The translations under genes and the position numbers were made by a program. The notes under the pieces were generated by a model, which had not been told where the DNA came from, searched no databases, and was given only the letters and a program-made list of their open reading frames with translations. Positions 34,236 to 64,000 of a DNA stretch of 64,000 nucleotides are shown here, piece after piece. Source of the stretch: Synergistaceae bacterium (lineage in GTDB: Bacteria; Synergistota; Synergistia; Synergistales; Aminobacteriaceae); contig WRHH01000001.1 of NCBI GenBank assembly GCA_009783355.1, positions 124,001 to 188,000 of the forward strand. The letters run 5' to 3'. How positions within the stretch are numbered: the first letter of the stretch is position 1; each line of letters starts with the position of its first letter.

Positions 34236-34378
34236 TCTTTGTTTTTCAATTCGGAATTCCGAATTGATTTCACTATCGCTGTCCGGAAAACTGATGTTAG
34301 GTTTTAGGGATTAACGTATAGAAAAACAAAAAACTCCTGTCTTTGTCTTTCTAATCCCTAATCCCTAGTCCATAATCC

Positions 34379-36874
34379 CTAATCCCTGTTCTTTCTTGCG
34401 AATATTAACATGCCGAAGAGCCCTAATGCAACGTAGCCCAAGCCCCAGTCGCATCCGCCGCCGCCTGAGCCGGGGAGAATAATTTTTGAAGTCGGAGTAG
34501 CTACCCATATTGAGGCGCTCAGAACGCCGTCGTCATCTCCATCGCAGATTACCAGAACGTTGTTGTGCACTCCCGAGTTACCGGGGCCGTCGGCAAGTAT
34601 GTACTCTATTGTTACTATTGCGCCATCGGAGGTCAGCGTCAGAGTGGTAATACCTTTCGCCAGCGCTTCCTCGAACGTAATCATCGCGCCTGAAGGCCCC
34701 ACTATATTCAGTGTTTTACCGTCGGCAGACATGATAAATGTTAAGTTCTTCTTTAGGTTGCCTAAACCGCCAAATGCGTTTATAAGCGCGTTATCCAGTT
34801 TCACTTCGTAGAGCATCTTAGCGGCTGTTTGTTTCGCAGTTATCTGCTCCGGTTTCAGAGTGATTTCGACCTCGGCGCCGGGAAGGTCAAACTTAAATCC
34901 GGAAACGTCAGGAGCAGCGCTTGCGCCGACAGAATTAACCTGAATGTTCCCGTCGTCGCGCGTCAGCAGGCTGTGTCCGCTTCCTTGAGCATTTCCAACC
35001 GCCGTCTTGTCGTCGTCAGTCGGGCTTCTGAAAGCTGAGTTGTTAATAGTCGGCCCGACTAAATCAGCAGGGATAACGAATAGCGTACCCGGAGCGTTCG
35101 CAATGTGAGTTTTGAGAGCGTCGTGGATTTTTTCCGCTGCGCGTAAAGTTCTGTCGGATACCGCAATGGTGTAGTCCGTTATAAACTTTGCCGCGATCGC
35201 AGGATCTTCTGCGTACAGGCGGAGCAATTCCGGCTCAATGACTTTTTCCTGATCCTCGTAAAGGCTCAGCTCATGGGCGCGCCAGAATGCCCTAAGTGGC
35301 GCGGCGTAGTTCCTTCTGTCGCTGCGCGCCATGCGCCCCGTGTCGGAGAAAAGCCAGTAAGCGCTGTTGGAGTCGTAGTAACCCGGCGAGGATGAGTCGG
35401 GGTGTGTTTGATTATATTTATATTTCGGGTGAGTATCCGTGATGTTGCCGTAGAATGGGATGTTGACCGAGGTCTCGGCTGCGGACAAGCCAACCCAAAA
35501 ACGCGCGCCAATTTCCGGAGGCAAATTGCCCCCAACATCGAAAATGTGCGTATGCCCAGCTGTTACGTATCCTATCGAGCGCATCGCTATCGGGCCGGTG
35601 CCAAGTCCCCAAAATGAGAAGTCGTCTCCATGCCCCTCGCGTAACTCAGCGCCGGTTGTGGGATGTATGTACTGCGGGTAGAATTCCACGTCAATAGGCG
35701 TGCCTGCGTAACGGTAGCGCTGCATCATAGCTATGTCCATCGGCGATATCTTCTTGTCCGGTTTCAGGTAATTCGGGTATGTCCTGCCGGTGTCGCCGGA
35801 TGTAAGGTTCGTCCCGCCGCCTCCGTAATATTCCGCTTCAGTCAGAGCCTGGAGCCCCAATGAAGGCTTGAACATGCTGATGCCGCCCCAGAAACGATAC
35901 GCGTTGTAGCGGCTGTGCTGTGAGCCTCCGGTGGCGGAAGGCGTCCCGCCGAAAGTGAGCGCTATGTTGATCCTTTTTACGCCGTTCTCGTCAAATTCAA
36001 ATCTTGCGACGTCGTGGCTTGTTGCGTATTGTTCGGGGTCAAAGTTGCTCCTGAAGTTTGCGGTGTCAGCTTTGTTGAAGAATTTGTGCGTCATCGCGTT
36101 GGCGAACACCATAAAACAATCGTCGGGGACCCGGCTTGCGATGTAATTTCTTCTGGTGATGAACTCGATTACCCACGCCTCGTTCTGGTCCGCTACTTTG
36201 ATTATTTCGCTTGACGAACCATGATATGTTCCGTCCACAGCCTGCGTATTAAGAATCCTATCGATAACGTCCATCGCCTCTTGACAATTGGCGGCCTCAG
36301 CGAGCAGCACCTTTGCCATTGTATGTTCCGTCCATCTACTATTGCCGTGGGTGTAGCTGCCAAGTTTGTCGGGTGCAACATTTCTGAAATTGTTAGTGGT
36401 TGTGGCCGACACAGCAAGTCCCTTTTCATTTACTCCGCTGCCGTCGAAAGTGAAATAGTACCCATCCTCGTAAAGCGGCGGAGGGGTAAGCCCGTATAGG
36501 AGCGAGCCGGGAGCGGCTGCAGATACTCCCAAATCCTTCGAGGTCGCCTCTGAGCCAAGGCCGCCTACCCCTGTTCCGTTTCTGGTCGTATGCGCCACAG
36601 CAGTGTACTTGTAGCTGTCGTGAGAGAACTTAAAATTAAAACCGTTGGACTGAAGCGCATAGTTGATGTCCTTCTTGAAGAAACCGGCGGGAACCACTAT
36701 GAACTTCTTGGGATTATTAGGGTTTAAGTCCTCAGTGCGGGCAAACAAAACGCGTCCCGTAGTGGACGCGTTCTTTCCGACGATAATGGAAGTACAAGCC
36801 CATGAAGTTACCGGTGAAAGCAGATAAACCGCGAGAATTGCTAACGAGAGGATTCTTCTTTTTGATAAACTCAT
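34379..36874 (-). CDS. Secreted C69 dipeptidase, copy 2
   Basis: An 831-residue paralogue of the flanking C69 enzymes. The signal peptide (SKRRILSLAILAVYLLSPVTSWA) again ends at the nucleophile Cys27 (ACTSIIVGKNASTTGRVLFARTED). Core blocks VNEKGLAVSATTT, MAKVLLAEAANCQEAMDVID and DQNEAWVIEFITRRNYIASRVPDD are intact. The shared C-terminal domain (LPGAEVEITLKPEQITAKQTAAK) and Synergist-CTERM end (GGGCDWGLGYVALGL) follow. The final residues NRD and the TAG stop are read from an ACAGGGATTAGGG repeat, which replaces the KKSK end of copy 1. The signal region is almost identical to copy 1. Confidence 0.88.
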   Translation of the reverse strand: MSLSKRRILSLAILAVYLLSPVTSWACTSIIVGKNASTTGRVLFARTEDLNPNNPKKFIVVPAGFFKKDINYALQSNGFNFKFSHDSYKYTAVAHTTRNGTGVGGLGSEATSKDLGVSAAAPGSLLYGLTPPPLYEDGYYFTFDGSGVNEKGLAVSATTTNNFRNVAPDKLGSYTHGNSRWTEHTMAKVLLAEAANCQEAMDVIDRILNTQAVDGTYHGSSSEIIKVADQNEAWVIEFITRRNYIASRVPDDCFMVFANAMTHKFFNKADTANFRSNFDPEQYATSHDVARFEFDENGVKRINIALTFGGTPSATGGSQHSRYNAYRFWGGISMFKPSLGLQALTEAEYYGGGGTNLTSGDTGRTYPNYLKPDKKISPMDIAMMQRYRYAGTPIDVEFYPQYIHPTTGAELREGHGDDFSFWGLGTGPIAMRSIGYVTAGHTHIFDVGGNLPPEIGARFWVGLSAAETSVNIPFYGNITDTHPKYKYNQTHPDSSSPGYYDSNSAYWLFSDTGRMARSDRRNYAAPLRAFWRAHELSLYEDQEKVIEPELLRLYAEDPAIAAKFITDYTIAVSDRTLRAAEKIHDALKTHIANAPGTLFVIPADLVGPTINNSAFRSPTDDDKTAVGNAQGSGHSLLTRDDGNIQVNSVGASAAPDVSGFKFDLPGAEVEITLKPEQITAKQTAAKMLYEVKLDNALINAFGGLGNLKKNLTFIMSADGKTLNIVGPSGAMITFEEALAKGITTLTLTSDGAIVTIEYILADGPGNSGVHNNVLVICDGDDDGVLSASIWVATPTSKIILPGSGGGGCDWGLGYVALGLFGMLIFARKNRD

Positions 36875-45205: not shown

Positions 45206-45442
45206 CCTGACCTCCGGCCGCTCCCGGTCTCCTGACCTCCGGCCGCTCCCGGTCTTCCTGACCTCCGGCCGCTCCCGGTCTTCCTGACCTCCGGCCGCTC
45301 CCGGTCTTCCTGACCTCCGGCCGCTCCCGGTCTTCCTGACCTCCGCGGCACTCGGTCTCCTGACCTTCGCGGCACTCGGTCTCCTGACCTTCGGCCGCTC
45401 CCGGTCTTCCTGACCTCCACGGCACTCGGTCTCCTGACCTTC
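45206..45442. repeat. Minisatellite of 24-26-bp units upstream of the AbiEii module
   Basis: About nine tandem units, each CCTGACCT[CT]C then a C/G-rich core and CGGTCT(T). Two unit types occur: one with GGCCGCTCCCGGTCTT and one with GCGGCACTCGGTCT. The first five are nearly identical and the last four mixed. The array is much more GC-rich than its surroundings and ends 9 bases before the -10 box of the next gene. Confidence 0.92.
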
Positions 45443-46337: not shown

Positions 46338-46443
46338 CCATATAAAGCGGGCGGCTACAAGCCGCCCCTACACGTTAAATCTTCTACGTTGCCCAAACAT
46401 CCGCTCTTTTGTTTTTGTTTTTGTCTTTTCTAATCCCTAATTC
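46338..46443. repeat. REP palindrome and 3'-flank repeats between AbiEii and beta-CASP genes
   Basis: The palindrome GGGCGGCT-ACA-AGCCGCCC followed by CTAC lies at about 46348-46370. It is followed by a CACGTTAAATCTTCTACGTTGCCCAAACATCC segment that recurs near 53735. Then come TTTTGTTTTTGTCTTTTC and TAATCCC heptamers leading into the stop of the beta-CASP gene. Confidence 0.75.
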
Positions 46444-48033
46444 CTAATCCCTAATCCCTGTCTTTCTAGCTGTTTCCAACAACGTCCTTGTCGATAAAAT
46501 AAGCGGCGTCAGCGACTCTACATTATTCTCCGTTAAGTTTTCTTCGATTAACTCCGCTATTCTCGTTATATCTCTAAGAGCTGCTTTAATATTAGCTTCC
46601 AACTTCTGCTTTTCGCTTGCGTGGTGCAGAAGAACAGTTTGTACGCCGCTCGAAATCAATTCAAGGATGTCTCCGCGTTTCGGGACAAAGGTTTTATTCC
46701 CCGCAGATTTAAGTTTCTCTGAGAGGGCAATTGATGATTCAGGCTCCCCGTGCGTTATCACATACGTTGGATTAGTCTTAAAATTATGCGCCCAGTCAAT
46801 CAAGTCATCCTGGTCGCCATGCGCGGAAAATCCATTTATAGTGTGAATATTCGCTTGCACTCGAACTTCTTCTCCGGCCACGCGAACAAATTTCTGCCCG
46901 TCGACAATTCTGCGGCCTAAAGTTCCCTGAGCCTGGTACCCTACAAAAATAACGTGGTTATTATTGTCGTATAGCCCATGTTTTAAGTGATGAACGATTC
47001 TGCCGCCGTTGCACATTCCGCTGCCTGCAATGACTATTGCGCACTTTACTTCATTAATCTTTTTGGATTCCTCTACGCTTGCCACAACTTGAAGCCCATC
47101 AGGAGAAAATGGATCATTTTCCAAGGCTATGTAGTTTTGGATTTCGGTTGAAAGAAAGTCTACGTGCGCTTTGTAGATAGCGGTAGCTTTCGCGCCCATT
47201 GGTGAATCCAAATAAATTGGTATATTTTTTGGGATGATATTCTCGTCCTGCATAAGGCAGATTTCGTAGAGGATGCGTTGTGTGCGGTCAACAGCAAAGC
47301 TCGGAATCAGCACTTTTCCTCCCGAGCGTATAGCGTTTGATACCGCATCCCTAAATTCCTGCCTCGTTTCGTCTTGGGACTTGTGGTTCCTATCCCCATA
47401 AGTGGATTCCATTATCACGTAATCCGCTGAGCTCAGGCTTGCAGGGCTCCGTTCCATGACTGCTTTCATTGGACCTATATCTCCGCTGAAAGCGAGCTTT
47501 ACTGTTTCATCTCCTTCATTAATCGTCACTTCAAGCATCGCGCTTCCGATAATATGTCCGGCGTCGCGGTAGCGCACTGAAATTCCCGGCAGCACATCAA
47601 TATTTTCGTCATAACTTATGGAGCGAAGCTTCTTGATAGCTTTCTCAACGTCCTTTTCGTCGTACAACGGCGCCACGGGGCCAAGCCCCTTCCTTGAGTT
47701 TTTGCGGGTCTCCCATTCAGCGTCCTCCTGCATCAATCGCGCGCTATCGTGCCACAGTATCGGGATTAATTCTCTTGTTGGAGTCGTTGCCCAAACTTTG
47801 CCTTTGAACCCGTTTTTTACAAGAAGCGGGATACGACCTGAATGATCCATGTGTGCATGTGTGAGTAAAACTGCGTCAATTGCTGAAGGAAGTATCGGAA
47901 ACGGGATGGAATTATCATTCTCGCTTTTTCCCTGAAACATTCCACATTCAACGAGAATTTTTTTCCCTGCGCATTCAATAAGGTACGCCGACCCTGTCAC
48001 TTCTCCAGCGGCGCCTAAAAATCTTATATTCAT
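46444..48033 (-). CDS. Beta-CASP metallo-β-lactamase-fold ribonuclease
   Basis: A 529-residue MBL-fold nuclease of the beta-CASP/CPSF73-like group. Zinc ligands are in THAHMDHSG (His59, His61, Asp63, His64), further ligands in RDAGHIIGSAML and FSGDIG, then beta-CASP motifs STYGDR, the EICLMQ region, CAIVIAGSGMCNGGRIVHHLKHGL and GFSAHGDQDDL. About 70 extra C-terminal residues form helices. These enzymes process RNA; the substrate is unknown. The last residues (KTGIRD and TAG) are read from an AAGACAGGGATTAGGGATTAG repeat. Confidence 0.9.
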   Translation of the reverse strand: MNIRFLGAAGEVTGSAYLIECAGKKILVECGMFQGKSENDNSIPFPILPSAIDAVLLTHAHMDHSGRIPLLVKNGFKGKVWATTPTRELIPILWHDSARLMQEDAEWETRKNSRKGLGPVAPLYDEKDVEKAIKKLRSISYDENIDVLPGISVRYRDAGHIIGSAMLEVTINEGDETVKLAFSGDIGPMKAVMERSPASLSSADYVIMESTYGDRNHKSQDETRQEFRDAVSNAIRSGGKVLIPSFAVDRTQRILYEICLMQDENIIPKNIPIYLDSPMGAKATAIYKAHVDFLSTEIQNYIALENDPFSPDGLQVVASVEESKKINEVKCAIVIAGSGMCNGGRIVHHLKHGLYDNNNHVIFVGYQAQGTLGRRIVDGQKFVRVAGEEVRVQANIHTINGFSAHGDQDDLIDWAHNFKTNPTYVITHGEPESSIALSEKLKSAGNKTFVPKRGDILELISSGVQTVLLHHASEKQKLEANIKAALRDITRIAELIEENLTENNVESLTPLILSTRTLLETARKTGIRD

Positions 48034-53821: not shown

Positions 53822-56800
53822 TTATTTAATCTTTTTAAGTGGAACCAAAAGCGCTAACAACCCGTACCCTAAGAAAAATCCTGCATTACATCCTCCTCCG
53901 CCTTTTTTGGATGTCGACTCAACGGTGAAGCTTACGTTAAACGATTGCGGATCTATATCGGCGCCTCCTGAGACCGTGACGGTCGCTTCATACGTTCCTG
54001 CTTTCAGCCCTGTTATCGGCGCTACCGAGAAGCTATCGCTTCCTTCTACTGCTATGTTGGGCATTGAGGTTTTGTTGAGGGCGAAGCTTGACGCGTTCTT
54101 GCCGGACAGCGCAATGTTCAGCGCTCCCGTTGCCGCGGCGCCAATGTTGTTGACTGTCACGGCGCGCGGATTCACTGCGCTGTAGCGTTCTGAGACCGAA
54201 CCGAAATTCATATTGGTTGCGGGATCAAGCGATATGCCGGAGATTGCGTTTCTTACTATAACGGTGAAGTCCTTGATGAAATTAGCATATCTGAGCCTGC
54301 TCTCCACACCGCCCCAAATCATTGCCGTGACGACTACCTCGCCCGGCTTTGCGCTGAACAGGGCGTCGCCGAATATCACGGCGCCGGTGCTTTCCGCGTC
54401 CTTAACGCTCCAGACTATTTTCTTGTTGGTCGCGTTATCCGGTATAACCGTCCCTGTCAGGGTAAGGGGCGTATTCAATATGGCGGTATCAGGCGCGCCG
54501 ACTATGTCCGTCACCGGCACGAAGTAGATTATTTCCTCGTACATAGCTGACACCGTCAGATCAGAAGTGATGTTTTTAATGTTGCTGTCCCAGTCGGCGA
54601 ATATATAACCTTCCTTAACCGGCGCGCCGGGATCGGTTGCGTCGTCGCCGTGTTCGACCGTCTGGCGGTTGAACTCAACGCCGTCAACCATGAAAATTAC
54701 CGTGTATGTATTGATTACGAATTGCGCGCCCACCGTCAGGCCTGAAGTTATGAAGGAGAAATCTCTATCCCAGTTGGTGAATGTATGACCTTCCTTAAAA
54801 GGTTCGCCGGGGTCGTGCGCCGCTCTGCCATATTCCACGGTCTGGCGGCTGAATTCTCTGTCATTAGCCATAAAAGTGACTGTGTAAACGGGGTTTGTAA
54901 TGTCCTTGAATTGCGCCGACACTGTCAGATCCGATATGATGTTGGAGTAGCCTTTGTCCCAACCGGCGAATGTACAATCCTGCTTGGTCGGTACGCCGGG
55001 GTTCACTGCGGCGTTTTCGTGTTCCACCGTCTGGCGGCTGAACTCGGCGCTGTCCGCCATGAAAACCACGTTGTGCGAAGCGGCTGTATTGCTTTTGAAT
55101 TGCGCGATCACCGTCAGGTTTGACGTGATATTGGAGAAATTTTTGTCCCAGCCGGTGAACGTATAACCTTGCTTGACCGGTGTACCGGGGCTCTTGGCCG
55201 CGCCGCCGTGTTCAACGGTCTGGTGGTTTATAACAACGCGGTTCGCTACGAAATACACTGTGTATGAGGCGGTTGTATTGCTTTTGAACTGCGCTGTCAC
55301 CGTCAGGTTTCCCGTGATGTGGGAGAAGTTTACGTCCCAACCGGTGAATGTATAACCCGCCCTCGCGGGGTCAGCCGGAGCGGTTGCGCTTAAACCGTGT
55401 TCCACCTGATACGAAATGATCACTGCGCCGTCCCAATTAAGAAATGTCACGGTATATTTGTTGGGATCGTACAGCGCGGTCACGGTCAGATCGACGGTGA
55501 CGAATGAGAAATCCCTGTTCCAGCGCGCGAAAGTATAACCCTGCCTGGCAGGATTTGCGGGCGCTGTCGCGCTTGTACCGAAGGCTACAGTGTCCTTTTT
55601 AAGCGCCTCTCCGTTCCAGTCAACAAAAGTCACGGTGTAGTAGTTGATATTGTATGTCGCCGTCACCGTCAAGTCGCTGGTGATGCTTGTGAAATCCTTA
55701 TCCCAGCCGGCGAAGGTATAGCCCGGTCTGACCGGGTCCGCCGGAGCGGTCACTCCCATGCCGTATGGAACCGTACGTTTTATGATAACGTCTTCGTTCC
55801 AGTCAACAAAAGTTACGGTGAAGTTGCCGACAGTGAACAGCGCGTTCACCGTCAAGTCTGAGGTTATGTTCGAGAAATCCTTATCCCATCCCGCGAAGGT
55901 GTAACCAGGCTTAGTAGGCACGCCGGGATCAACCGCCGCTTTGCCGTGTTCGACGGTCTGGGTGTTGAATACCTTGCCGTCCGACATGAAAGTTACGGTG
56001 TAGGTGTAAGTATCGTACACCGCCTTAACAGTAAGGTCTGAAGTGATGTTCGAGAAATCTACATCCCAGCCGATGAAGGTATGGCCGGCTCTAACGGGGT
56101 CGGGCGGCGCAGTCGCAGGATCCTCGTATAAAACCGTCTGCGTATCAAGTACGGTACCGTCACAGTCAACGAAGGTCACCTTGAAAGCCTTAACGATGCG
56201 AACAGTGAAGTCCTCGTTGTAACCACTGACCAGTACAGGAGCAACGTTTATATTTCCTAATGTGCCATCGCCCAGCTGTCCGTTAGAATTCATTCCCCAC
56301 GCCCAGAGGCTGCCGTCAGTTTTTTTAGCCATGGAGTATTCGCCACCAGAGAAAACCGCTACCCAGTTATTCGCAGTTCCCACACGTTTTGGTGAGCTGT
56401 TGTTAGTCGTCGTGCCATCACATAGCTGGCCTTTTGAATTGCCTCCCCATGCCCAGAGGCTGCCATCAGTTTTTATAGCTATGGTGTGATACTGACCCAC
56501 GGTAACCGCTGCCCAGTTTTTGTCCATTCCCATTTGGTCTGGTGAGTTGCATTGAGTCGTCAAGTCATAGCCTAACTTACCGTTTTCATTACTTCCCCAT
56601 GTCCAGAGGCTGCCGTCAGTTTTTATTGCTGCTGTATGATCATAGCCCGCAGCAACCGCCGCCCAGTTTTTCGCACTCGTCTCCTCTTGGACGGGAGTGT
56701 AACTATTAGTCGTCAAGCCATTGCCCAGTTGACCATAATCATTTCTTCCCCATGCCCAGAGGTTGCCGTCAATTTTTATTTCTATGGTGTGACCAAAACC

Positions 56801-57598
56801 TGCATCAATCGACGCCAAGTTATAGCCTGTCCCCACATTAAATGGAATAGTTTGGCTTTTACCATCAGTATCAATGCCCAGCTGACCATATTGATTATTT
56901 CCCCACACCCAGAGATTACCGTCAGTTTTTGTGGCCATGGTGTAATGATATCCTGCGGCAATTGTCTTCCAATCAGTTGTTAACCCAACAAGTGTGGGGT
57001 TTAAGACAAAATCTGTTGTGCTTGACGTGCCGTTGCCTATCTGGCCGCTTGAATTATATCCCCACGTCAAGAGGCTACCGTCAGTTTTTTTGCCAATTGT
57101 ATGATTAGCGCCTGCGACAACCGCATCCCAGTTATTATCCGTACCCACTTGGACAAGATAACTGCGATTTATCCTTGAACCATCGCCCAGCTGACCGTAA
57201 TAATTATTTCCCCATGCCCAGAGGCTGTCGTCTTTTCTTATGATAAAGCAGGAACCGGCGGCACCCACGGAAACCTTATCCCAGTCATTTCCATACGGGT
57301 CGTTTACCACCGACGCTCTGACTGTTACTATGCCCTCATTTGGAGCGAACAGGGTATCTCCGGATAACGTCGCGCCGGTCGATCCGTCGTCAATTATGTT
57401 CCAGATTATGTCCTGATTTGTCGCGTCAATAGGAAGCACCGTGCCCGTGAGGTCGAACGACACTCCGACCTCTATTTTCTTCGGTACGTCATCAATACTT
57501 ATCACCTTCACAAAGTCAGCATCCGCCGCCCCCGAGCAAAAAACCAGAGTAAGCGCCATCGCCAATAATACAGCAGGTTTACTTCCGTTACTTTTCAT
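53822..57598 (-). CDS. Giant surface protein: RCC1 propeller, nine InlB-type repeats, Synergist-CTERM
   Basis: A ~1258-residue exported protein. After a signal peptide (KPAVLLAMALTLVFCSGAADA) come a Big-2-like Ig domain, seven RCC1 repeats (~110-475, pattern DGSLWAWG-N--GQLGDG) and nine InlB B-type/Listeria-Bacteroides repeats (~480-1030, pattern YTVTF...TVEHG..A..PG.P...GYTF.GWD..FSNIT.DLTV.A.F). A second Big-2-like domain and a choice-of-anchor/ASPM-like domain (NFGSVSERYSAVNPRAVTVNNIG) follow. The end is GGGGCNAGFFLGYGLLALLVPLKKIK-like. Seven RCC1 units suit a closed seven-bladed propeller. The ATG at 57598 follows GGAGG by 8 bases. It probably acts in adhesion. Confidence 0.88.
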   Translation of the reverse strand: MKSNGSKPAVLLAMALTLVFCSGAADADFVKVISIDDVPKKIEVGVSFDLTGTVLPIDATNQDIIWNIIDDGSTGATLSGDTLFAPNEGIVTVRASVVNDPYGNDWDKVSVGAAGSCFIIRKDDSLWAWGNNYYGQLGDGSRINRSYLVQVGTDNNWDAVVAGANHTIGKKTDGSLLTWGYNSSGQIGNGTSSTTDFVLNPTLVGLTTDWKTIAAGYHYTMATKTDGNLWVWGNNQYGQLGIDTDGKSQTIPFNVGTGYNLASIDAGFGHTIEIKIDGNLWAWGRNDYGQLGNGLTTNSYTPVQEETSAKNWAAVAAGYDHTAAIKTDGSLWTWGSNENGKLGYDLTTQCNSPDQMGMDKNWAAVTVGQYHTIAIKTDGSLWAWGGNSKGQLCDGTTTNNSSPKRVGTANNWVAVFSGGEYSMAKKTDGSLWAWGMNSNGQLGDGTLGNINVAPVLVSGYNEDFTVRIVKAFKVTFVDCDGTVLDTQTVLYEDPATAPPDPVRAGHTFIGWDVDFSNITSDLTVKAVYDTYTYTVTFMSDGKVFNTQTVEHGKAAVDPGVPTKPGYTFAGWDKDFSNITSDLTVNALFTVGNFTVTFVDWNEDVIIKRTVPYGMGVTAPADPVRPGYTFAGWDKDFTSITSDLTVTATYNINYYTVTFVDWNGEALKKDTVAFGTSATAPANPARQGYTFARWNRDFSFVTVDLTVTALYDPNKYTVTFLNWDGAVIISYQVEHGLSATAPADPARAGYTFTGWDVNFSHITGNLTVTAQFKSNTTASYTVYFVANRVVINHQTVEHGGAAKSPGTPVKQGYTFTGWDKNFSNITSNLTVIAQFKSNTAASHNVVFMADSAEFSRQTVEHENAAVNPGVPTKQDCTFAGWDKGYSNIISDLTVSAQFKDITNPVYTVTFMANDREFSRQTVEYGRAAHDPGEPFKEGHTFTNWDRDFSFITSGLTVGAQFVINTYTVIFMVDGVEFNRQTVEHGDDATDPGAPVKEGYIFADWDSNIKNITSDLTVSAMYEEIIYFVPVTDIVGAPDTAILNTPLTLTGTVIPDNATNKKIVWSVKDAESTGAVIFGDALFSAKPGEVVVTAMIWGGVESRLRYANFIKDFTVIVRNAISGISLDPATNMNFGSVSERYSAVNPRAVTVNNIGAAATGALNIALSGKNASSFALNKTSMPNIAVEGSDSFSVAPITGLKAGTYEATVTVSGGADIDPQSFNVSFTVESTSKKGGGGCNAGFFLGYGLLALLVPLKKIK

Positions 57599-59217: not shown

Positions 59218-62200
59218 TTATCTTTCATTGAACATTGTGCATTGTGCATTGTATCTATGCATAATCCTTTTAATCGGAATCAAAAGCGCCAACAACCCGT
59301 ACCCTAAGAAAAATCCCGTATTACACCCTCCTCCTCCTTTTTTGGAGGTCGAGTTGACCGTGAAGCTTACGTTGAACGATTGCGGGGCTATGCCGGCGCC
59401 TCCCGAGACTGTTACGGTTGCTTCGTATGTACCTGCTTTGAGCCCCGTTATCGGCGCTACCGAGAAGCTGTCGCTTCCATCTACTGCTATGTTGGGCATT
59501 GAGGTTTTGTCGACGGCGAAGCTTGACTCGTTCTTGCCGGAAAGCGCAATGTTCAGTGCTCCTGTTGCCATGATGCCAATGTTATTGACTGTCACGGCGC
59601 GCGGATTCACTGCGCCGTAGCGTTCTGAAACCGAACCAAAATTCATGTCGGTTGCAGGATTGAGCGATATGCCGGAGGCTATGGACTTAACCTTAACGGT
59701 GAAGTCCTTGGTGAAATTTGCAAATCTTTGCCTGCTCTCCACGCCGCCCCAGATCATCGCTGTGACAACTACCTCGCCCGCCGCCGAGGCGGTCAGCTCG
59801 TCGTCCGTTATCGCAGCGCCGGTCACGCCTGCGTTCTTGATGCCCCAGACTATTTTCTTGTTGGTCGCGTTATCCGGAATCACCGTACCTGTCAGGGTAA
59901 GCGGCGTGTTTGTCATGGCGGTGTCAGGCGCGCCGACGATGTCCGTCACCGGTACGAAGTAGATTATGTTCTCGTACAGCGCTGTCACCGTCAGGTCACC
60001 TCTGATGTTGGTAAAGACGCCGTCCCAGCCTGCGAATATATAACCTTCCTTGACCGGAGCGACGGGATCGATTGCATCGTCGCCGTGTTTGACGGTCTGG
60101 CGGTCGAACACAACGCCGTCAACCATGAAAATTACCGTGTAAGTATTGATTGCGAACTGCGCGCTCACCGTCAGGTCGCCTGTGATGTTGGAGAATCCTT
60201 TATCCCAGCGGGTGAACGTATATCCTTCCATAAAAGGTTCGCCGGGGTCGTGCGCCGCGCTGCCCTGCTCCACTGCCTGGCGGCTGAACTCTTCGCCGTT
60301 CGCCATGAAAATCACTGTGTAAACAGGGTTTGCAATCGCTTTGAATTGCGCCGACACTGTCAGATCCGATGTGACGTTGGAATAGCTTTTATCCCAACCG
60401 GAGAACGTACAATCTTGCATGGCGGGTACGCCCGGGTTCTCGGCGTCGTTTTGGTGTTCCACGGTCTGGCGGCTGAACTCGGCGCTGTTCGCCATGAAAA
60501 CAACGTTGTGCGAGACGGCTGTGTTGCTTTTGAATTGCGCAATCACCGTCAGGTTTGACCTGATATTGGAGAAGTTTTTGTCCCAGCCGATGAATGTATA
60601 ACCTGCCCTCGCAGGATCAGCCGGAGCGATGGCGCTTGAGCCCTGTTCAACGTACTGATGGTTTATCACAACGCGGTTTGCTACGAAATACACGGTGTAC
60701 GAGGCGGTCGTATTACTTTTGTACTGCGCCGTCACCGTCAGGTTTCCTATGATGTGGGAGAAATTAACGTCCCAGCCGGTGAATGTATAGCCAGCCCTCA
60801 CAGGGTCAGCCGGAGCGGCGGCGCCCGAGCAGTATTCCACAACCTGCAATTTGAGCACTGCGCCGTCCCAATCAACAAACGCCACGGCGAATTTGTCAGT
60901 ATCGTACAGCGCCCTCACGGTCAGATTGCCTGTGATGTGGGAGAAATCTGTACTCCAACCTCTGAATGTATGACCATCCCTCACAGGGGCCTCCGGGGCG
61001 GCCGCGCCCGCGCCGTATGGCACAGTTTGCTTTAAAAGCACTTCTCCGTTCCAGCTGACAAAAGTCACTGTGTAATGGTTGATATTGAACAGCGCGTTAA
61101 CCGTCAGGTCGCCGGTGATGTTCGAGAAGATCTTATCCCAGCCCGCAAAGGTGTGACCAGCCTTGACGGGCGACCCGGGATTGAACGCAGCGGCGCCGTA
61201 TTCCACGGTCTGGCGGTTGTACTCAACGCCGTCCGACATGAAAATCACGGTGAATCTGTGGGCGGTGAACATCGCGTTGACCGTCATGCTGCTGGTTATA
61301 TTCGTGTAAACCTTATCCCAGCCGGTGAATGTGTGCCCTGCCTTGGAAGGCGCGCCAGGATTGGCCGCTGAGCCGCCGGGTTCGACGGTCTGGCGGTTGA
61401 ACTCGATGCCGTCCGACAGGAAAACAACCGTGTATTTGTTGCCGGGCTCGAACAGCGCTGTCACCGTGAGGTTGCCGGTGACGTTCGAGAAGTTAGTATC
61501 CCAGCCGGTGAAAGTGTAGCCCGCCTTTACCGGTATTCCGGGATAAACTGCCGCGCTGCCGTGATCGACTGTCTGGCGGTTGAACTCGGCGCCGTCCGAT
61601 ATGAAAACAACGGTGTATTTATTGGCAACGAACACCGCAGCCACAGTCAGATCGCCGGTTATGACGGAGAAATCCCTGTCCCATCCGGTGAAAACGTATC
61701 CTGTCTTGACAGGCGCCCCGGGCGCCGCCGCCGCACCGCCGTGATCAATTGTCTGGCGGCTGATCTCAACGCCGTCCGCGATGAAAATTACCGTATATTT
61801 GTTGATAACATAAAGCGCGGTCACGGTCAGATCGCCGGTGACAACGGAGAAATCCCTGTCCCAGCGCGAAAAAGTATACCCAACCCTAGCCGGATCCGCC
61901 GGAGCAACAGCCCCAGCGCCGGAGGACACCGTAACCTTCTTGAGCACATCCCCGTTCCAGTCAACAAAAGTAACGGTGAAGCCGTCGCCTGAGTCGGGTT
62001 TGTACTGAGCGGTCACGGTAATGTTTTCAGAGACAATATCGAAATTCTTATCCCAGCCGATGAAGGTGTAGCCTTCCCTGATCGGGTCCGCCGGCGCGGT
62101 GGCTCCCGAACCGAAGGATACAGTATGCGTTTTTAGCACAGTTCCGTCATGGTCCTTAAACGTTACGGTGTAGTCGTTGACATCGAATTTCGCGTTTACC

Positions 62201-63990
62201 GTTAGGTCGCCGGTGATGTTCGTGAAATCCGAAGGAATCCAGCCAGTGAAGGTGTATCCCGTCTTGGTAGGCATGCCGGGATCAACCGCTGCTTTGCCGT
62301 GTTCGACTTCCTGAGAGCTGAACTCAACGCCGTCCGACATGAAAATTACGGTGTAGGTGTTGATTTTGTATTGTGCTTTAACTGTCAGGTCGTCGGTGAT
62401 GTTCGAGAAAACCGGAGGATCCCAGCCGATGAAGGTGTGGCCCGTTCTAACGGGGTCGGCTGGCGCCGTCGCGGAATTGCCTTCTACAACTGTCTGCGTA
62501 TCAATTACGTTTCCGTCCCAGTCAAGGAAGGTCACTGTGTAAGTTACCGATGAGGGTTCGCTCACCGTGATGGTGAAGTCTTTGTTGTACCCATTCAACA
62601 GTACAGGAGCGTTGCAGCTAGCCTTTGTGTTGTCACCAAACTGACCGGAAGAATTATTTCCCCACGCCCATAAGCTGCCGTCGATTTTTATACCCATAGA
62701 GTGATTTTCGCCTGCGGCAACAACCACCCAGTCATATGCTGTACCCACACGTGTTGGTATGCTACGGTTAGTAGCCGTGCCATCGCCAAGTTGTCCACTG
62801 TTATTAAGTCCCCACGCCCAGAGGCTGCCGTCAGTTTTTATGGCTAAATTGTGTCGATAGCGTGCGACAACTGCCTTCCAGTCATTCGACGTCGATATTA
62901 AGACGGGAGTAGTCTTGTTTAATGTCGTGTCATCTCCCACCTGTCCAGCATTATTAAATCCCCACGCCCAGAGACTGCCGTCTTTTTTTATGGCTATGCT
63001 GTGTGCAGAGCCCGCAATAACTGTAGCCCAGTCATCGTCTCTGCCTACTTGTTGGGGAGAGGGACGGTGTGTGCCTGTGCCTGAGTTATCAAGACCAAGC
63101 TGACCGTTTTGATTACTTCCCCACACCCAGAGGGTGCCGACTTTTTTTATAGCTATGTTGTGATTAGCGCCAGCTTCAAACGATGCCCATTCATATAGTG
63201 CCCCCACACGTTGGGGAGTTGTTTGGTTAGGTGCGCTTCCGCCTAATGAACCATTGCCTATCTCGCCGAAATAATTACACCCCCACACGTAGAGGCTGCC
63301 GTCAGCTCTTATGGCTATAGTGTGAGCAGAGTTGGTGGAACCGCCCACAGCTGCCGCTGCCCAGTTGTCTGCTGATCCCACTTGTGTTGGCTTGTTTTTA
63401 TCAATCTTCGTATTATCGCCCAGCATACCCATTCCATTATATCCCCATGCGTAGAGGCTACCGTCTTTTTTTATGGCTATGGTGTGTTGATATCTCGCAT
63501 CAGCTGCTGCCCAGTTATTATCACTCCCCACGCGGACAAGCGTTAAACGTTGTATGTTCGTACTGTCGCCCAGCTGACCTTTATCATTAACTCCACACGC
63601 CCAGAGGCTACCGTCTCTTCTTATGGCTATTGTGTAATTCTGGCCTGCGTAAACCGCCTCCCAATTGCCATTCGGGTCGTTTGCAACTGACGCCGTAACT
63701 ATAACTGTGCCCGTTCCAGTAGCGGTTAAGGTATCGCCGGATAACGCCGCGCCGGTTGTTCCCGCGTTTTTGACGCTCCAGTGTAAATACTGATTTGTAG
63801 CGCTACTAGGACTAACATTGCCCTTGAGGGTGAGCGGCACATTGGTTGTTGCATCCATCGGTACATTAATGATATCCGCCACCGGCACGAAGGCGGCGTT
63901 CGCCGCCGAAGAGTAAAAAACCAGAAAAAACACCGCGACCAGTACTATTGCTGTTTTTATTCCATTCCATTCCATTCCATTCCATTCCAT
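59218..63990 (-). CDS. Giant surface protein: RCC1 propeller, fourteen InlB-type repeats, Synergist-CTERM
   Basis: A ~1590-residue paralogue of the protein at 53822-57598. Order: repeat-encoded N-terminus (MEWNGMEWNGIK), signal peptide (TAIVLVAVFFLVFYSSAANA), Big-2-like domain, seven RCC1 repeats, fourteen InlB B-type repeats, a second Big-2-like domain, the ASPM-like domain and a GGGGCNTGFFLGYGLLALLIP Synergist-CTERM tail. A 14-residue extension (MHRYNAQCTMFNER) read from an intergenic repeat follows the tail. The in-frame start could be 63990, 63975 or further upstream, since ATG recurs every 15 bases in the pentanucleotide array. The C-terminal ~600 residues are very similar to the sister protein. 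Confidence 0.85.
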   Translation of the reverse strand: MEWNGMEWNGIKTAIVLVAVFFLVFYSSAANAAFVPVADIINVPMDATTNVPLTLKGNVSPSSATNQYLHWSVKNAGTTGAALSGDTLTATGTGTVIVTASVANDPNGNWEAVYAGQNYTIAIRRDGSLWACGVNDKGQLGDSTNIQRLTLVRVGSDNNWAAADARYQHTIAIKKDGSLYAWGYNGMGMLGDNTKIDKNKPTQVGSADNWAAAAVGGSTNSAHTIAIRADGSLYVWGCNYFGEIGNGSLGGSAPNQTTPQRVGALYEWASFEAGANHNIAIKKVGTLWVWGSNQNGQLGLDNSGTGTHRPSPQQVGRDDDWATVIAGSAHSIAIKKDGSLWAWGFNNAGQVGDDTTLNKTTPVLISTSNDWKAVVARYRHNLAIKTDGSLWAWGLNNSGQLGDGTATNRSIPTRVGTAYDWVVVAAGENHSMGIKIDGSLWAWGNNSSGQFGDNTKASCNAPVLLNGYNKDFTITVSEPSSVTYTVTFLDWDGNVIDTQTVVEGNSATAPADPVRTGHTFIGWDPPVFSNITDDLTVKAQYKINTYTVIFMSDGVEFSSQEVEHGKAAVDPGMPTKTGYTFTGWIPSDFTNITGDLTVNAKFDVNDYTVTFKDHDGTVLKTHTVSFGSGATAPADPIREGYTFIGWDKNFDIVSENITVTAQYKPDSGDGFTVTFVDWNGDVLKKVTVSSGAGAVAPADPARVGYTFSRWDRDFSVVTGDLTVTALYVINKYTVIFIADGVEISRQTIDHGGAAAAPGAPVKTGYVFTGWDRDFSVITGDLTVAAVFVANKYTVVFISDGAEFNRQTVDHGSAAVYPGIPVKAGYTFTGWDTNFSNVTGNLTVTALFEPGNKYTVVFLSDGIEFNRQTVEPGGSAANPGAPSKAGHTFTGWDKVYTNITSSMTVNAMFTAHRFTVIFMSDGVEYNRQTVEYGAAAFNPGSPVKAGHTFAGWDKIFSNITGDLTVNALFNINHYTVTFVSWNGEVLLKQTVPYGAGAAAPEAPVRDGHTFRGWSTDFSHITGNLTVRALYDTDKFAVAFVDWDGAVLKLQVVEYCSGAAAPADPVRAGYTFTGWDVNFSHIIGNLTVTAQYKSNTTASYTVYFVANRVVINHQYVEQGSSAIAPADPARAGYTFIGWDKNFSNIRSNLTVIAQFKSNTAVSHNVVFMANSAEFSRQTVEHQNDAENPGVPAMQDCTFSGWDKSYSNVTSDLTVSAQFKAIANPVYTVIFMANGEEFSRQAVEQGSAAHDPGEPFMEGYTFTRWDKGFSNITGDLTVSAQFAINTYTVIFMVDGVVFDRQTVKHGDDAIDPVAPVKEGYIFAGWDGVFTNIRGDLTVTALYENIIYFVPVTDIVGAPDTAMTNTPLTLTGTVIPDNATNKKIVWGIKNAGVTGAAITDDELTASAAGEVVVTAMIWGGVESRQRFANFTKDFTVKVKSIASGISLNPATDMNFGSVSERYGAVNPRAVTVNNIGIMATGALNIALSGKNESSFAVDKTSMPNIAVDGSDSFSVAPITGLKAGTYEATVTVSGGAGIAPQSFNVSFTVNSTSKKGGGGCNTGFFLGYGLLALLIPIKRIMHRYNAQCTMFNER

Positions 63991-64000
63991 TCCATTCCAT
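63961..64000 (-). repeat. (ATGGA)n pentanucleotide repeat at the start of the giant surface protein gene
   Basis: Eight perfect TCCAT units (ATGGA on the coding strand) run to the window edge and continue beyond it. Each set of three units reads Met-Glu-Trp-Asn-Gly. Every frame contains an ATG each 15 bases, and each unit includes the GGA core of a ribosome-binding site. Confidence 0.95.

Follow-up and report, generated by a model that had tools for sequence, protein, structure and literature searches.

What does a run of ATGGA pentamers do at the head of a giant gene in a Synergistaceae bacterium? With a unit that is not a multiple of three, it could switch a surface protein on and off, or it could be a neutral expansion that the gene tolerates. 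The window, by which we mean the whole 64,000-nucleotide stretch analyzed here, spans C1:124001-188000 of a draft assembly (2.10 Mb, 46 contigs, 80% complete), and the sequence was also read past the window edge into its continuation, L015. An earlier note, made from the window alone, had named the array a candidate contingency locus.

Extent of the array

The array lies on the minus strand and consists of exactly nine perfect ATGGA units at window coordinates 64005-63961 (C1:187961-188005). Direct reading and TRF confirm the eight units that the earlier note had seen at 63961..64000, and the array does run on past the window as that note supposed, by a ninth unit at 64001-64005 in the L015 continuation. 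This single extra unit rules out an array that extends far past the window. The flanks, AAGGAGGTTTTATGATGCAAAGACATAG and AATAAAAACAGCAATAGTACTGGTCGC, are unique. The maximal period-5 tract at the array measures 49 bp, 42 bp of it inside the window, where the runner-up period-5 run reaches 13 bp and the chance maximum, taken from 40 first-order Markov resamplings of the window, is 15 bp. Chance origin is excluded by these figures, and the locus carries a perfect tandem tract, longer than chance allows, whose unit is not divisible by three.

The predicted start of translation

The gene that carries the array is an RCC1/List_Bact_rpt surface-protein gene, identified by its open reading frame and Pfam matches, which occupies 59218..64000 of the window on the minus strand and whose first ATG (ATG1, at 64023) lies outside it. 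From ATG1 the frame runs for 1601 codons to its end at 59218, intact over 4.8 kb, and the array is indeed the 5' coding end of a giant gene, as the earlier note had it. The 5' region is ordered GCATTGAA AAGGAGG TTTT ATG ATG CAA AGA CAT AGA (ATGGA)9 ATA AAA ACA GCA ATA GTA CTG GTC. A near-perfect Shine-Dalgarno (SD) sequence, AAGGAGG, is found on the minus strand at 64034-64028, outside the window, followed at spacings of 4 and 7 bases by two in-frame ATGs that precede the first array unit by 18 and 15 nt. The earlier note had placed the start within the array because this upstream DNA lay outside its view; that placement is rejected on account of the SD and the ATGATG.

The predicted duplex energies with the 16S tail are -12.7 and -13.0 kcal/mol for ATG1 and ATG2, as against -3.9 kcal/mol at best for the ATGs of the array, and because of this difference initiation upstream of the array appears by far likelier than initiation inside it. 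Starts of the paralogs described below fall between -9.3 and -12.9 kcal/mol, which puts the SD of the array gene on par with the family's best, and the position of its start resembles that of the eleven paralogs. As far as sequence can tell, the tract is in frame and downstream of a start that is fixed regardless of unit number. The earlier note held that a start codon outside the array would weaken the idea of a contingency locus. The start does lie outside, but frame switching is strengthened by it rather than weakened, because the start stays put whatever the change in unit number.

The gene directly upstream encodes a flagellin and is followed by a terminator-like hairpin; a separate promoter is therefore probable for the array gene. 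In the upstream gap, the strand of the array gene gave no match to a conventional sigma-70 promoter. The flagellin is itself unusually long, with 795 aa and a large central region (L015 983-3370, window coordinates 64482-66869).

The predicted protein

The leader translates as MMQRHR(MEWNG)3IKTAIVLVAVFFLVFYSSAANA/AFVP. Directly 3' of the array, the remainder of the signal peptide, IKTAIVLVAVFFLVFYSSAANA/AFVP, is encoded at 63885..63960 on the minus strand; it has a hydrophobic core and an AxA-type cleavage site by eye and aligns with the signal peptides of the paralogs. The protein matches Flg_new (1e-113) and RCC1 (3.4e-61) in Pfam, with seven RCC1 and fourteen Listeria-Bacteroides repeat stretches. 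Its C-terminal tail, KKGGGGCNTGFFLGYGLLALLIPIKR plus an extension (59221..59335, minus strand), contains GGGGCNTGFFLGYGLLALLIPIKR and resembles Synerg-CTERM, although its 10.5 bits fall below the cut-off of 22.5; one paralog reaches 21.4. Surface exposure of the product is likely but no more than that; the features that bear on it are the by-eye signal peptide, the two repeat types and this sub-threshold tail. The same domains leave the earlier note's word "adhesin" plausible, though unproven. At 59221-59270 the C-terminus continues past the tail of the paralogs (IKR/IKK); the continuation, MHRYNAQCTMFNER, appears to be encoded by the intergenic CATTGTG/CATTGAA repeat, as though loss of the stop codon had let the frame run on into an array between genes.

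Frame logic of the unit number

Translations were computed from ATG1 for a range of unit numbers. With n = 3, 6, 9, 12 or 15 the predicted product has 1591-1611 aa. With n = 4, 7, 10 or 13 it ends after 13-28 aa, at a stop just behind the array (ATG GAA TAA), and with n = 5, 8, 11 or 14 after 45-60 aa. The nine units of the assembly represent the open, or ON, state with 1601 residues, and a single unit gained or lost leads to early termination after 23 (n = 10) or 50 (n = 8) residues; the neighboring values are 18 for n = 7 and 55 for n = 11. Slippage by one 5-bp unit would shift the frame from an upstream start just as the earlier note had reasoned. The OFF states could leak, because ATGs recur in each frame of the array. 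Unit number also changes the leader itself, the net charge of which is +2, +1, 0, -1 and -2 at n = 3, 6, 9, 12 and 15, with one Glu per MEWNG.

A paralog family and the probable origin of the array

Besides the array gene, the family has at least eleven members in this genome, on C1, C2, C6, C8, C9, C10 and C19, and the array is absent from all eleven, its carrier being one of twelve members. The family as a whole (L016-L023) comprises at least twelve large RCC1/List_Bact_rpt-type genes of up to about 2800 codons, and Synerg-CTERM-like tails are present in some of them and absent from others. Families of this type, with signal peptides and in part with CTERM-like tails, are where contingency loci usually occur. 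Paralog starts follow the pattern of an SD, 7-12 bases, ATG or GTG and then AAA, with the leader MKSNGRKTAI or similar, with which MEWNGIKTAI of the array gene aligns. The nearest paralog in the window (53825..57598, minus strand, 1258 codons) shares the domain layout and begins with an SD and a ATGAAAAGTAACGGAAGT start, without an array.

A paralog on C6 (L019) bears on the origin of the array. It reads ATGAAAAGTAATGGAATGAAAACAG, which contains AATGGAATG at the position that matches the AATGG repeats and then AATAAAAACAG of the array gene, and slippage is likely to have begun from such a AATGGAATG as its seed. Probably the array arose by expansion of a AATGGAATG that the MKSNGMKT leader of one family member contained beforehand. 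The ancestral start may correspond to ATG2 or to one of the array ATGs; in both cases the present start lies upstream of the array. Not one of the nine units departs from ATGGA in its DNA, despite about nine synonymous sites, sites of a kind at which the paralogs vary; this uniformity speaks for a repeat that changed recently or is still changing, and not for conservation of the peptide.

Arrays elsewhere in the genome and in relatives

A census of perfect arrays covered 1.72 Mb of the 2.10 Mb assembly (82%). It returned 57 heptamer arrays, 55 of them intergenic, though about 83% of bases are called coding by naive ORFs; the two ORFs that hold the remaining heptamer arrays are small and doubtful. 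Only two other pentamer arrays appeared, both short and intergenic. Poly-A/T runs of nine aside, no array in this 1.72 Mb except (ATGGA)9 combines a unit not a multiple of three with a place shortly after an SD-supported start. Because heptamer arrays avoid genes, it is exceptional in this genome for a frame-shifting array to follow a start codon so closely. The genome forms arrays readily yet has nearly none in genes, and (ATGGA)9 sits where switch action is possible.

The commonest heptamer is AGGGATT, joined by AACTACT, AACTCCT, CATTGAA and AAAGACA in dozens of perfect arrays that lie almost entirely between genes. Examples are found at window coordinates 34351-34387 and 46430-46459, at L021 1503-1620 (TAACTAC x16.9) and at L042 8799-8907 (AACTCCT x15.6). 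A 24-base AGGGATT array pattern gives 58 overlapping matches here, whereas 40 relatives have none. Heptamers between genes have also been described in Xanthomonas and Nostoc (PMC4692102). The window also holds, at 45206-45440, an imperfect 26/74-bp tandem repeat (CCTGACCTCCGGCCGCTCCCGGTCTT) of about nine copies that is GC-rich by eye.

Among relatives, (ATGGA)4 was absent from the 100 related genomes searched, and no array was found near the gene start in 89 homologous loci (80 GTDB contig loci and nine from family members). The one same-genus genome, 77% complete, contains no homologue or ortholog of the array gene or of its family. Homologues do occur in four other members of the taxonomic family, and arrays are absent in the stretches compared. 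One heptamer array was seen among the 80 GTDB contig loci, upstream of the homologous gene in L082. The closest outside homologues (L082-L087) come from assemblies named Clostridiales, Bacillota and two methanogenic archaea, with 38-55% identity in the best segment, and some of the names suggest termite guts. It is possible that surface genes have been exchanged across phyla within one habitat.

A candidate switch and its alternatives

We consider it reasonably probable, though well short of certain, that (ATGGA)9 functions as an opa-type contingency locus acting on the coding frame. In that case translation would start at the ATGATG 4 to 7 bases past AAGGAGG and proceed through the array into the signal peptide, while slipped-strand mispairing during replication would alter the number of units. 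At a count divisible by three, such as the present nine, the 1601-residue surface protein would be produced and exported; at any other count the ribosome would halt after a short peptide, leaving the cell without the surface protein. Two parts of this scheme, count variation at a high rate in living cells and selection on the switching, we infer. The earlier note's reading of a contingency locus is borne out as to anatomy, with a start outside the array, nine units in the ON frame and early stops one unit to either side. At the level of sequence the locus has what an opa-like coding contingency locus requires, with surface exposure only likely. Against a switch stand the single locus, which makes no phasome, the possible leakiness of the OFF states, and the presence of mutS and mutL, although mismatch repair probably acts poorly on 5-base loops. 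A mutator state was considered and rejected on the finding of both genes.

The alternative that survives best, which we regard as a real but minor possibility, is a recent neutral expansion from a pre-existing AATGGAATG, in which either chance or selection for the protein has held the frame at nine, with no selected switching. The n-region of a signal peptide tolerates added residues, the gene would be dispensable among so many paralogs, and a genome with 57 heptamer arrays in 1.72 Mb makes many tandem arrays of its own accord. The confinement of the array to one of twelve family members, with none in the 100 relatives or the 89 related loci, fits such an expansion, as do the seed visible in a paralog and the fall of the n-region charge from +2 (n = 3) to 0 (n = 9), which is unlike a design for export. 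However, long frame-shifting arrays are otherwise nearly all outside genes, and one behind a start should disappear unless it is tolerated or useful. The reading frame is moreover intact over 4.8 kb, and nine pentamers, even if neutral, should switch as a matter of mechanics.

Alternatively, the array might tune the efficiency of translation initiation, each unit supplying an ATG and a GGA that serve as an alternative start and a weak SD. This was also suggested by the earlier note, and we find it poorly supported and very unlikely. At any unit number, one array ATG in three shares the frame of the ORF, and a GGA stands five bases ahead of every array ATG. But these ATGs have only the weak duplexes noted above (about -3.9 kcal/mol) beside the -12.7 to -13.0 kcal/mol available after AAGGAGG, the predicted folding energy of the 5' region is nearly constant with n (changes are small and without clear trend), and all paralogs start close behind an SD.

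It is similarly hard to credit a scheme in which gains and losses of three units grade export through the length and charge of the n-region, with the OFF states as by-products. Positive n-regions favor Sec export, and the leader would lose one charge for every three units, from +2 to -2 over n = 3 to 15, but single-unit slips should outnumber three-unit slips. An artifact of assembly or contamination is barely conceivable: simple repeats are prone to mis-assembly in a draft of 46 contigs and 80% completeness, and the ATGGA repeat, read in a shifted register as (GGAAT)n, occurs as a satellite in human DNA, but both flanks belong to one gene with a same-frame match to paralogs on other contigs, a 45-bp array is short enough for one short read, and part of the motif occurs in a paralog as AATGGAATG.

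Comparison with known phase-variable loci

The closest parallel to the putative switch is found in the Neisseria opa genes, whose leader-peptide region holds CTCTT pentamers that vary in number (PMC3960869, PMC13183285); slippage shifts their frame at a rate of about 1e-3 per cell per generation (PMC3960869). In each system a perfect run of pentamers follows a start codon whose position is fixed and precedes the end of the signal peptide, the product being a surface protein in opa and a likely one here; n mod 3 sets the frame, and the gene belongs to a multigene family. The locus described here is not a member of the Neisseria opa family proper, given its RCC1/List_Bact_rpt domains, where opa encodes an outer-membrane barrel, and its ATGGA unit, where opa has CTCTT. 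Its tract lies in the hydrophilic n-region just ahead of the core and is carried by one family member, whereas gonococcal repeats set the frame of each of several opa genes. Variation in unit number is known for opa, while the present array is known from one assembly.

The hsdM gene of H. influenzae, with (GACGA)4, switches at a high rate with just four pentamers (PMC2651432). As in the array gene, the number of coding pentamers determines its frame, but it is a restriction-modification gene with a shorter tract and not a surface protein. If slippage acts here as in opa and hsdM, nine perfect pentamers would be within the mutable range. Tetranucleotide coding tracts phase-vary surface structures in Haemophilus (PMC2651432); these are likewise coding simple-sequence repeats, but they are tetramers at many loci per genome, in contrast to a single pentamer locus.

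A more elaborate proposal, which we hold to be improbable, is that a member of the Synergistota evolved its own opa-like pentamer switch, starting from a seed in the leader of a duplicated surface protein, and that this switch works as a three-state device, with two OFF frames and a set of ON states in which export falls with each negatively charged extra MEWNG. In the titles and abstracts searched, which cover the literature in part, no repeat-driven phase-variable locus is described from Synergistota/Synergistetes. The placement in this phylum follows the earlier note and the near-threshold Synerg-CTERM tails. If the unit count does vary, the array gene would give the phylum a surface protein whose phase variation is driven by a repeat, of which those titles and abstracts hold no example, and it would be convergent with Neisseria opa in unit length and leader position. 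The eleven array-free paralogs, one of them with the apparent seed AATGGAATG, would then offer a rare view of the birth of a switch.
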